Source: Candidatus Thorarchaeota archaeon
GTDB taxonomy: Archaea > Asgardarchaeota > Thorarchaeia > Thorarchaeales > Thorarchaeaceae
Direction: 5' to 3'
Assembly (NCBI GenBank): GCA_030612365.1
Contig: JAUWOA010000007.1
Location: 1-49,409 of the forward strand
Length of the DNA: 49,409 nucleotides
Under the pieces are notes generated by a model, which saw nothing but the letters and a program-made list of their open reading frames with translations, did no database searches and was not told the origin of the DNA. The position numbers and the translations under genes are program-made. Positions 15,388-19,768 of this stretch are shown piece by piece. Within the stretch, counting starts at the first letter, position 1. Each line of letters begins with the position of its first letter.

Positions 15388-16059
15388 GTGAAGCAGTTGG
15401 AACGCTCTTTTGTAATAATCAAACCTGATGGAACCGCTAGAAGAAGAGTGAGTGCCTTGGTAATCAAGGCTCTGCTGGATAGAGAATACAGTGTCCGTGC
15501 CTTCAAGGAAATGAAGGTGTCCAAGTCGCTGGCTGAAATGCACTACGCGGTCCATAAGGAAAGACCATTCTTCCCCTGGCTTGTAAATTTCATAACTTCC
15601 GCCAATGTCCTGACAATGATTCTTGAAGCTGATAACGTAATCGAAGGCGTTCGCGAAGCGCTTGGTGCAACATTTGTTCAGAAGGCTTCGCCCGATTCAC
15701 TAAGAGGACGGTATGGGATATGGGCTGGCATTAATATTGCTCACGCATCTGATGGACCAGATACTGCAATAACTGAGATATCTCTCTGGAAGACTGAAGG
15801 TGGCGTAGAAGAGTCTGATGATGCAGAGGCCTTTGCTTGGGCCTATATCAACAAGCACAGTTCTGGAAGCGCCGACTATACCATGGATATTCGCAATATT
15901 GTCAAAGAATCCATTGCTAATAGAAACACATCGACTGCTGTTCTGAGCTCGTTGGAAGATCTGCTAGGTAGAGATGCAGAAGGAATCGAGAAGAAATCAA
16001 TCAGCGCTCTGGCAAATGCGATTTTTGATTACATTAAGGAAGAAGCCGAGAAAAAGTGA
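15388..16059 (+). CDS. ndk: Nucleoside diphosphate kinase with C-terminal extension
   Basis: The enzyme transfers the gamma phosphate between nucleoside triphosphates and diphosphates through a phosphohistidine. The first 150 residues match Ndk: FVIIKPDG at residues 8-15, HYAVHKERPFF, and NIAHASDG with the catalytic histidine near residue 123, where the common form is HGSDS. About 70 further residues, mostly charged and helical, follow and are not part of the usual Ndk of about 150 residues. The start is GTG at 15388. It is convergent with the ribosomal genes and divergent from aIF5B, unlike the usual co-directional archaeal order. Confidence 0.93.
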   Translation: MKQLERSFVIIKPDGTARRRVSALVIKALLDREYSVRAFKEMKVSKSLAEMHYAVHKERPFFPWLVNFITSANVLTMILEADNVIEGVREALGATFVQKASPDSLRGRYGIWAGINIAHASDGPDTAITEISLWKTEGGVEESDDAEAFAWAYINKHSSGSADYTMDIRNIVKESIANRNTSTAVLSSLEDLLGRDAEGIEKKSISALANAIFDYIKEEAEKK

Positions 16060-16116: not shown

Positions 16117-16317
16117 TCAGCGCTTTGCTTTGCCACCTTTTTCATAGCCCGCAGTCCACTTGGTATCTCTGGGCTTCATCTTCCGTTTTATCCTGTTGAC
16201 CTTGCACTTATTCGAACAGAACCACAGCACAGCCCCATCCTTTGTCTGTACGTAGGCCATGCCCGTGCCAGGCTCGATGTCCTTGCCACAGAAGATGCAT
16301 TTCTGTGTTCCAACCAC
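16117..16317 (-). CDS. rpl24e: Ribosomal protein eL24 (L24e)
   Basis: This 66-residue large-subunit protein has the archaeal L24e zinc finger, CIFCGKDIEPGTG followed by WFCSNKCK, with four cysteines. The basic C-terminal tail (KRKMKPRDTKWTAGYEKGGK) is typical. The start is GTG at 16317, three bases after the rps28e stop, so translation is coupled. It is the last gene of the L7Ae operon and ends before a bidirectional hairpin. Confidence 0.95.
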   Translation of the reverse strand: MVGTQKCIFCGKDIEPGTGMAYVQTKDGAVLWFCSNKCKVNRIKRKMKPRDTKWTAGYEKGGKAKR

Positions 16318-16319
16318 AC

Positions 16320-16553
16320 CTAACGCCTCCTCATCTTCCGAGCTTCACGTTCAGTTTCTCGGAGAGAGAGAATGTCGCCCTCTCTGACAGGGCCTTTCAC
16401 GTTGCGAGTGAGCACCCGACCTCTGTCACGTCCGTCCAATATCTTGACTCGGACTTGGGTGATTTCACCGGTCACTCCAGTTCTTCCCAGAAGCTGAATA
16501 ACCTCCGCTGGGATTGTGGCGCTCCTCTCTGAGTCATCACTTGTTTTACTCAT
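16320..16553 (-). CDS. rps28e: Ribosomal protein eS28
   Basis: This 77-residue small-subunit protein matches eS28. The blocks [20 protein letters not shown] and [12 protein letters not shown] and the C-terminal [10 protein letters not shown] are the family pattern. It lies between rpl7ae and rpl24e, as usual in archaea. The short N-terminal serine-rich tail ([11 protein letters not shown]) is variable in the family. The ATG at 16553 lies 24 bases after the L7Ae stop. Confidence 0.95.
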
Positions 16554-16577: not shown

Positions 16578-16949
16578 CTACTTGCGCAGTCCAGCTATCT
16601 TCTCAACCAAGTCATCAACAAGGTCCTTTGCCTTGCCATCAATGACGATGGCGACCGCCGCTGTAGGGCGTTCGATGCCGCAAGCATTACCAAGATCCTT
16701 CTTGCTATCCACGAAGATATATGGTGCTTTCTTATCATCACAGAGACCTGGCAAGTACATGATGATCTCTGGAGGTTCTACGTCCCCTGCAACCAATACA
16801 AGACGTGCGATTCCACGCTCTATGGACTTGGTTGCCTCGTTTATTCCTTTCTTGATTCGCCCTGTATCTTTGGCAATCTCAAGAGCCTCGAGAGCCTTCT
16901 TCTGGAGCTCTTCAGGGAATTCAACATCAACAAAACTCGGTTTCGGCAT
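16578..16949 (-). CDS. rpl7ae: Ribosomal protein eL8 / L7Ae (kink-turn binding)
   Basis: L7Ae is part of the 50S subunit and, in archaea, also of box C/D and H/ACA RNPs and RNase P; it binds kink-turns. The 123 residues contain the RNA-contact motif GINEATKSIERG near residues 38-49 and LVLVAGDVEPPEI in the core. The ATG at 16949 has GAGGT at 16962-16958. That ribosome binding site forms the closing strand of a kink-turn in the leader, described separately, which suggests autoregulation. It heads the operon with rps28e and rpl24e. Confidence 0.97.
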   Translation of the reverse strand: MPKPSFVDVEFPEELQKKALEALEIAKDTGRIKKGINEATKSIERGIARLVLVAGDVEPPEIIMYLPGLCDDKKAPYIFVDSKKDLGNACGIERPTAAVAIVIDGKAKDLVDDLVEKIAGLRK

Positions 16950-16956
16950 TATTATC

Positions 16957-16981
16957 TACCTCTGTTTTCACATCATTGGTA
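16957..16981 (-). promoter_or_regulatory. Kink-turn in the L7Ae leader overlapping the Shine-Dalgarno
   Basis: Read on the minus strand, UACC (16981-16978) pairs with GGUA (16960-16957) as the canonical stem. A three-base bulge AAU follows, then GA facing GA (tandem sheared pairs), then a UGU/ACA stem closed by a GAAA tetraloop. Every element of the kink-turn consensus is present, including U at the last bulge position as in box C. The closing strand contains the GAGGU ribosome binding site of rpl7ae, so L7Ae binding should block initiation. Binding itself is inferred. Confidence 0.75.
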
Positions 16982-16995
16982 TGAGTGTCTATTAG

Positions 16996-17050
16996 CGCAT
17001 CCTTTGCAAAGGGTGCGTTCTCGTCGCTGTCATGCCTACTTCTTTTAAAA
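16996..17050 (-). promoter_or_regulatory. L7Ae operon promoter and 5' leader hairpin
   Basis: TTTTAAAA at 17043-17050 is a TATA box; transcription would start near 17023, giving a leader of about 73 nt. An 11-base-pair inverted repeat (16996-17006 with 17007-17017) lies at the very start of that leader, separate from the kink-turn. It may be a stabilising 5' hairpin. Confidence 0.5.
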
Positions 17051-17090
17051 CTGTCGAACTAGTCCGACTCAACAACCATGGTAGACATGT

Positions 17091-18150: not shown

Positions 18151-18768
18151 GTGGCTCTTACATTAGTCCCAAGTAGCGTGAATTGCGGGCCGGGAACTTG
18201 CGAGTGTAATACTACAGCTGATATGTTGAAGGTACAGGATTCATTCAGTGAGCACCTGGAGTCCCATCTTATGACCCGCTATGTCAAGGTTGCACTAATG
18301 GGGTCAGGGTATGCCGGCAAGTCCACCCTGATCAAACTTCTCACAGACAACACGTCCGATCTAGATGGCAACTATAAGCCGACCTGTGGGATGGATTGCG
18401 GGACAATCACACTCGACAAGTTTACCAAGATATCGTTGGTTGAGATGGGTGGTCAGACACACTTCGAGTTTATGTGGGCTGACTTGCTAAGGGGGAGCAA
18501 GATGGTGGTCGTTGTCACTGAGAGCACCCCCAAAGCAGTACTGAAAACGCGTCAGATATTGCAAAAATACAGGAAGGAGCTAGAAGGCGTTCAGATCATC
18601 GCAATTGCAAATAAGCAGGACCTTCCTGGCTCTATGAAACCCCGCTCAGTTGAAGATTTGCTTGGAGTTCCCACCTATGGCATGGTAGCTATTGATCCGA
18701 AGCAACAGCTACACGGCTACAAGCTGATAGTCAATGGACTACGGGACATGGCCCAAGTAGCAGCATAG
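18151..18768 (+). CDS. Arf-like small GTPase
   Basis: This small GTPase resembles the Arf/Arl family. The P-loop GSGYAGKST is near residue 51, a switch I threonine lies in YKPTCGMDCG, G3 reads VEMGGQ, and G4 is NKQD. The usual G3 is DxxGQ; here the aspartate is glutamate, while the GGQ glutamine is kept. The frame opens at GTG 18151, but the first 24-40 residues, with several cysteines, are not part of the fold. ATG 18223, or ATG 18271 behind GGAG, may be the true start. No N-terminal myristoylation glycine is evident. Many such GTPases are known from Asgard archaea; the partner is unknown. Confidence 0.85.
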   Translation: MALTLVPSSVNCGPGTCECNTTADMLKVQDSFSEHLESHLMTRYVKVALMGSGYAGKSTLIKLLTDNTSDLDGNYKPTCGMDCGTITLDKFTKISLVEMGGQTHFEFMWADLLRGSKMVVVVTESTPKAVLKTRQILQKYRKELEGVQIIAIANKQDLPGSMKPRSVEDLLGVPTYGMVAIDPKQQLHGYKLIVNGLRDMAQVAA

Positions 18769-18831: not shown

Positions 18832-18856
18832 TTTTATACATACAAAAATGTGGCAC
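18832..18856 (+). promoter_or_regulatory. rpoD operon promoter: TATA plus GCAC element
   Basis: TTTTATA starts at 18832 and GTGGCAC lies at 18850-18856, the GCAC beginning 20-21 nt after the TATA start. Transcription would begin near 18859, giving a leader of about 105 nt before rpoD. Confidence 0.6.
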
Positions 18857-18964
18857 CCGTACCCAGAGCATGGGCGAGTGAGCTGGCAGCCCTTTGGCAG
18901 GGTATCTCAGCGAGTCTGTCCGGGATCAGTGTCTTTTGGGTGCACTCCAAGGTCAGGTGATATA

Positions 18965-19768
18965 ATGGAAATCACAATCATTAGCAAACAGGATGATTCA
19001 ATCCATTTCCTAGTTGAGGATATAGATGTCGCATTTGCTAATGCAATCCGCAGGATAATGCTAACTAAGCTCCCTGCTATGGCGATAGATGAAGTACTCA
19101 TACTGGAAAATACCAGTGTTATGTACGACGAAATGATTGCTCAGCGTCTTGGCCTTATTCCTATAGTAACGGATCTAGATTCCTACAATCTTCCCCAAGA
19201 CTGCGAATGTGAAGGAAAAGGATGCAGCCTCTGCCAATGTACGCTCACACTAGAGGTGGAACCAGAAGATGAAGAGGTTGTTGTATACTCACGTAGCCTG
19301 ACATCACAAGATCCAAAAATAGTTCCTACCTCTGGAAACATCCCAATTACCAAGTTAGCACCCCATCAAAGACTGATTATAGAAGCCTATGCTCGACTTG
19401 GAACAGGCGCCGAGAATGCTAAGTTCCAACCCGTCGCAACGGTCGCATACAAGTATGTTCCAGTCATTAGCGTAGATAAATCGAAATGCAATCTTTGTGA
19501 AGAATGCGTAAAGATCTGTCCAAAGAATATCATGAAAGTTGACGGAAGCACTTTGTCGACCCAGAACACATTGGATTGCAGCTTGTGTGAGGCCTGTGTT
19601 GATGTCTGTGAGCCTGGAGCCATAACAATCGATTCCAAGAAGAACGCCTTTCTCTTCAAAGTAGAATCTACCGGCGCTCTAAGCCCCGAAACCATTGTTT
19701 CGAAGACAGCAGAAATTCTGAAGACTAGAATCCAAGCAGCTCTTGATTATGCGAACTCTCTGAGGTGA
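18965..19768 (+). CDS. rpoD: DNA-directed RNA polymerase subunit D with two 4Cys Fe-S motifs
   Basis: This is the alpha-like/Rpb3 polymerase subunit of 267 residues. The N-terminal dimerization part contains AFANAIRRIMLTKLPAMAID. A cysteine cluster (CECEGKGCSLCQC) near residue 75 precedes the insert domain. A ferredoxin-like domain near residues 175-220 carries two complete motifs, CNLCEECVKICP and CSLCEACVDVCE, which predict two [4Fe-4S] clusters. The frame opens at 18848, but ATG 18965 with an AGGTGA site gives the family start. It leads a string of ribosomal genes, with rpl18e next after 7 nt. Confidence 0.96.
   Translation: MEITIISKQDDSIHFLVEDIDVAFANAIRRIMLTKLPAMAIDEVLILENTSVMYDEMIAQRLGLIPIVTDLDSYNLPQDCECEGKGCSLCQCTLTLEVEPEDEEVVVYSRSLTSQDPKIVPTSGNIPITKLAPHQRLIIEAYARLGTGAENAKFQPVATVAYKYVPVISVDKSKCNLCEECVKICPKNIMKVDGSTLSTQNTLDCSLCEACVDVCEPGAITIDSKKNAFLFKVESTGALSPETIVSKTAEILKTRIQAALDYANSLR

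Follow-up and report, generated by a model that had tools for sequence, protein, structure and literature searches.

The window analysed here (a stretch of 49,409 nt from contig JAUWOA010000007.1 of the Candidatus Thorarchaeota assembly GCA_030612365.1) carries a cluster in which rpl7ae, encoding the ribosomal protein eL8/L7Ae, is followed by rps28e and rpl24e (table 1), and the leader of rpl7ae contains a complete standard kink-turn (k-turn) hairpin, as a first-pass annotation of the same DNA had drawn it. Read from 16981 to 16957, the minus strand gives in turn UACC, AAU, GA, UGU, GAAA, ACA, GA and GGUA, which form a C-stem (UACC/GGUA), a bulge (AAU), tandem G-A pairs, an NC-stem (UGU/ACA) and a GAAA loop; each annotated part lies where it had been placed, and the strand is minus. 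Directly 3' of the hairpin, GAUAAUA precedes the rpl7ae AUG (16949), leaving a spacer of 7 nt. The Shine–Dalgarno (SD) sequence GAGGU is correctly spaced for rpl7ae and, again as annotated, falls within the closing strand of the k-turn (16962-16958), where it supplies bases 2n, 1n, -1n, -2n and -3n, that is, the 3' side of the G/A core together with the C-stem strand.

The gene families of the cluster were confirmed by NCBIfam with the exception of ndk (15388-16059; below the curated cut-off), which separates rpl24e from infB and runs in the opposite direction, as it does in the Thorarchaeal loci examined; for Odinarchaeota the cluster is listed as L7ae-S28e-L24e-ndk-infB. Elsewhere in the window, a gene for a small Ras/Arf-like GTPase (18151-18768) adjoins one for an rpoD-like protein (18848-19768) in which two clusters of cysteines, CNLCEECVKICP and CSLCEACVDVCE, resemble those of ferredoxins; both genes were named by reading their sequences.

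Table 1. Coordinates of the rpl7ae leader elements and of the genes that follow them in the window
Feature	Position	Strand	Basis or remark
Promoter TTCGACAGTTTTAAAAG (TATA-like)	17042..17058	minus	nearly invariant in 46 leaders
Second hairpin, upstream in leader	16996..17017	minus	segment fold; stem covaries in relatives
L7Ae-type k-turn hairpin (predicted)	16957..16981	minus	sequence; one genome copy; 46/46 distinct Thorarchaeal l7ae leaders
k-turn 5' strand	UACC 16981-16978; AAU bulge 16977-16975; GA 16974-16973; UGU 16972-16970	minus	
k-turn loop and 3' strand	GAAA 16969-16966; ACA 16965-16963; GA 16962-16961; GGUA 16960-16957	minus	
Shine–Dalgarno GAGGU	16958..16962	minus	sequence; k-turn end to AUG 7 nt
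rpl7ae (eL8/L7Ae), 123 aa, presumed repressor	16578..16949	minus	TIGR03677, 164.6 bits (cut-off 134.6)
rps28e	16320..16553	minus	NF003080; own SD AGGUGAU in the 24-nt gap after rpl7ae
rpl24e	16117..16317	minus	NF034186; 2 nt after rps28e

The l7ae k-turn is not due to chance. Under a criterion of a C-stem of at least four pairs, a 3-nt bulge, GA opposite GA and an NC-stem of at least three pairs, dinucleotide shuffling of the 60-nt leader produced a k-turn 5 times in 5000, and 44 of 20000 60-mers drawn at random from the window held one; the whole window holds six matches, among which the l7ae element is apparently the sole leader case when judged against the list of open reading frames. The 2.3-Mb genome has a single copy of the pattern TACCNNTGA-N4..25-GAGGTA, and when 47 genomes of the family are compared, almost all of the recurrent matches to a tighter motif are the l7ae leader.

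Conservation of the leader k-turn in Thorarchaeota and other Asgard archaea

Leaders were drawn from 34 loci of a genome collection, a search across 228 genomes of the Asgard phylum and 80 fetched regions. Every one of the 46 distinct l7ae leaders of Thorarchaeota (12-13 genera) has the k-turn element; in each, a 3-nt bulge is followed by tandem G-A/A-G pairs between the C and NC helices, the arrangement of a standard (simple) k-turn, and the element lies in the 5' UTR beside or over the SD, ending 5-8 nt before the start codon. The 46 leaders share the pattern NNCC-[A/G]AU-GA-...-GA-GGU, and the GA/GA core, which the first-pass annotation had expected to stay fixed in relatives, is invariant in all of them. 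The 5' strand of the C-stem is UACC in 22 of 25 distinct elements and TGCC, AGCC or CGCC, which put G-U at -3, in the others; the three bulge bases are AAU or GAU. C:G occupies -1b:-1n as well as -2b:-2n, and 24 of the 25 have G:C at 4b:4n. Among 24 aligned elements the invariant columns are UGA, GAGGU, the CC of the 5' strand and the G:C at 4b:4n, and the loop (often GNRA) and the upstream sequence are variable. The NC-stem is minimal: over 25 elements, 3b:3n is A-A in 11, A-U in nine, U-A in one and mismatched in the rest (no standard pair in 15 of 24), with C at 3b in two of 25 and G never at 3n.

The predicted pairing is supported by conservation and not by covariation. Across the 24 elements 97.9% of the C-stem cells and 70.8% of the NC-helix cells are paired (86.3% overall), compared with 17-39% of all cells in controls with slid partners. 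The covariation of the UACC/GGUA and UGU/ACA pairs that the annotation had proposed as a check is essentially absent: changes in the C-stem are one-sided only (three of A-U to G-U and one of U-A to U-G), the sole two-sided swap in the NC-stem is A-U/U-A at 3b:3n, and a formal count over the 24 elements found no excess of two-sided changes in the k-turn stems. For the C-stem this is explained by its 3' strand being the SD, so that only G-U and U-G changes are tolerated; the 5' strand UACC, which neither codes nor serves as an SD, is nevertheless kept complementary to the SD.

Individual leaders depart from this picture in other respects. In one genome (the bin27 chromosome; leaders L008 and L041), an extra hairpin, GACAUGCUUCAGCAUGUC, lies within the apical loop of the k-turn as a long insertion, and the l7ae gene of L008 starts with GUG. 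The k-turn element was not seen in the Woesearchaeal leader L035.

Much of the Asgard phylum also appears, from sequence comparison, to carry an l7ae leader k-turn. Outside the Thorarchaeal family, 29 of 63 distinct leaders score as k-turns that extend into the SD zone, where shuffling of the same leaders yields a mean of 6.5 and at most 14; a match with a 3-nt bulge occurs in 14 of 25 sampled families; and AUGA is found in 61 of 64 other Asgard leaders, against 37 by shuffling. Several families have the NC-stem as their long helix, with a C-stem that is just the CU/GG of the SD.

Proposed feedback by L7Ae and competing readings

We consider it very likely that the l7ae leader element is a protein-responsive translational off-switch through which L7Ae would act on its own mRNA. 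Free L7Ae, once in excess over rRNA and guide RNAs, would bind and fold the leader k-turn; the bound GAGGU would be unable to pair with 16S rRNA and l7ae translation would stop, whereas consumption of L7Ae would let the weak hairpin open and translation resume. L7Ae and the ribosome would compete for the same five bases, GAGGU. The assembly's 16S rRNA is itself cut off at model position 828, short of the anti-SD. The window protein matches NCBIfam TIGR03677 with an E of 7.6e-49, as well as solved archaeal L7Ae chains including 6HCT (E 4e-36), which is the Archaeoglobus fulgidus protein bound to its own UTR k-turn (Huang, Ashraf, Lilley 2019, PMC6298567). Residues N33, E34, K37 and R41 of A. 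fulgidus L7Ae contact the k-turn (PMC6298567), and their equivalents are all present in the NEATKSIER segment of the window protein; the intact contact residues are consistent with the annotated view of this L7Ae as a k-turn binder.

By nearest-neighbour folding, the isolated k-turn hairpin of the window has a free energy of -2.9 kcal/mol, and the forced k-turn fold averages -0.3 kcal/mol, and so weak a hairpin should leave translation open unless L7Ae binds. With respect to folding in Mg2+, the Thorarchaeal elements have mostly Watson–Crick or A-A at 3b:3n, G:C at 4b:4n and C:G at -1b:-1n; by published k-turn rules the first two states disfavour such folding and the third favours it. Given the C:G at -1b:-1n, part of the k-turns could fold without protein.

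This possible folding without protein counts against the off-switch, as do the near-absence of compensatory changes and the predicted preference of the window leader for another hairpin, CACUCAU/AUGAUGUG, which L7Ae would have to refold. The last point leads to an elaboration of the off-switch (not an exclusive rival), in which an "anti-k-turn" hairpin of the UUCAU-ACCA-AUGAA type would leave the SD accessible as long as L7Ae has not refolded the leader. CACUCAU/AUGAUGUG belongs to the predicted minimum of a 56-nt leader piece at -8.1 kcal/mol, against the -2.9 kcal/mol of the isolated k-turn, and several further genera have like hairpins of 5-7 bp; however, their excess over shuffles is small (368 vs 328, sd 17, summed over 46 leaders), just three leaders fall individually below 0.05, and they are absent from much of the largest genus, which makes this elaboration improbable.

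The conserved block might alternatively be an extended ribosome-binding or unstructured enhancer sequence only, with the k-turn incidental. The SD half, GAGGUA, would be conserved in any case and the C-stem has no two-sided covariation, as this explanation would have it; yet CC[A/G]AUGA is invariant at a near-constant distance before the GA of the SD, so that the bulge always has 3 nt and the two GA dinucleotides face each other, pairing is preserved by the substitutions to G-U and U-G, and the ligand of such a k-turn, L7Ae, is the product of the very same gene. We therefore judge it very unlikely that sequence without structure accounts for the block.

Still less credible is a minimal upstream open reading frame (uORF) that would control l7ae through ribosome occupancy, starting at the AUG in the bulge and stopping one or two codons on (AUG AUG UGA in the window). 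Although a stop follows the k-turn AUG (window 16976-16968, minus strand) within at most four codons in 40 of 46 leaders, the apparent excess (at first 20 of 24 elements, against an expected 7.0) mostly vanishes once the U-A pair at 5b:5n is held fixed, when stops match those of shuffled apical loops (14 of 18, expected 13.9). What excess there is resides in six related elements only, other Asgard leaders have none (11 of 61 against an expected 10.0), and an SD-like sequence stands upstream of the k-turn AUG in only three of 46, and this candidate was rejected. The structure of the loop explains most of the AUG and quick stop, with the six related elements remaining in excess. Equally far-fetched is an overlap of the leader with all or part of a box C/D guide RNA: UGAUGU and ACAGA look like boxes C and D, and Rfam scans of the window, which gave no gathering-level match, returned at weak thresholds sub-threshold C/D snoRNA matches only (16.1 bits vs a cut-off of 41), but the GA strands are usually 10-11 nt apart, so that a guide has no room, and the candidate was rejected on the guide stretch between boxes C and D.

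The off-switch would concern l7ae itself. A coupled shut-off of S28e and L24e, which the first-pass annotation had added, is speculation, since a conserved SD, AGGUGAU, belongs to S28e itself; in relatives, the S28e start lies ~7-25 nt past the l7ae stop and nearly always behind an AGGUGAU-like SD of its own. An effect of L7Ae on these two genes is possible, but it is neither required by the off-switch nor indicated.

The leader holds a second hairpin between the promoter and the k-turn. In 16 relatives, eight of its nine pairs show two-sided changes, 88.9% of cells are paired, and the covariation score exceeds those of all 500 shuffles and all slid versions; one group has a conserved CGnnGnAGAG-like stretch before the hairpin. 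A weak-threshold Rfam scan matched it to no known family, and the idea of a second k-turn was rejected by eye for want of a conserved GA/GA core. The promoter sequence is unique in the genome at up to two mismatches, which suggests a transcription factor site particular to this locus, next to the TATA box. A two-part regulatory RNA, transcribed from this genome-unique promoter and joining the k-turn over the SD to a second covarying hairpin that binds or senses something else, is a tentative reading that we hold to be rather unlikely.

Relation to known L7Ae circuits

The mechanism itself is already published. The Sulfolobus precedent invoked in the first-pass annotation is documented: in S. 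acidocaldarius, feedback by L7Ae through a leader k-turn was demonstrated in vivo, GA mutations relieve the repression, and the circuit was also shown for six other archaeal leaders in a reporter (Daume 2017, PMC5539422). As proposed here for Thorarchaeota, L7Ae there masks the SD by binding a standard k-turn in the 5' UTR of its mRNA. The two differ in that the SD of S. acidocaldarius flanks the 5' side of the bulge, where there is a single G-C pair, whereas the Thorarchaeal SD is the non-bulged strand of a 4-bp C-stem. Placement directly over the SD, which the annotation had stressed, is not new either, as the l7ae UTR k-turn of A. fulgidus, for which a structure (6HCT) and SD occlusion are described, holds its SD in the C-helix on protein binding (PMC6298567), with the same proposed off-switch. 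Like many Thorarchaeal elements it has A:U at 3b:3n; at -1b:-1n it has C:A, and the C:G that all Thorarchaeal elements show there is absent from the six leaders examined in that work. In yeast, L30e (RPL30; cited in PMC6298567) is likewise a protein of the L7Ae family that binds a k-turn in its own transcript, although there splicing is also affected and the protein is L30e instead of L7Ae. A k-turn scan found none in the L30e leader of the window, and among 16 nop5 leaders scanned (starts placed roughly) one had a k-turn-like element, so that nop5 regulation of the Sulfolobus type is not evident.

What is new is the Asgard case, which appears to cover all of the Thorarchaeotes examined and much of the phylum. 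Earlier published tests of L7Ae feedback concern Crenarchaeota and Euryarchaeota, and in the literature searched we found no l7ae leader k-turn from Asgard archaea or Thorarchaeota. In GAGGU, one pentamer would serve ribosome and repressor at once, a dual duty that leaves the stem unable to covary. The universal presence of the element in Thorarchaeota and its enrichment among Asgard archaea would extend the feedback to the archaea most closely related to eukaryotes, in which the related L30e works through a k-turn of its own mRNA, and the Asgard distribution supports a great age for the L7Ae circuit.
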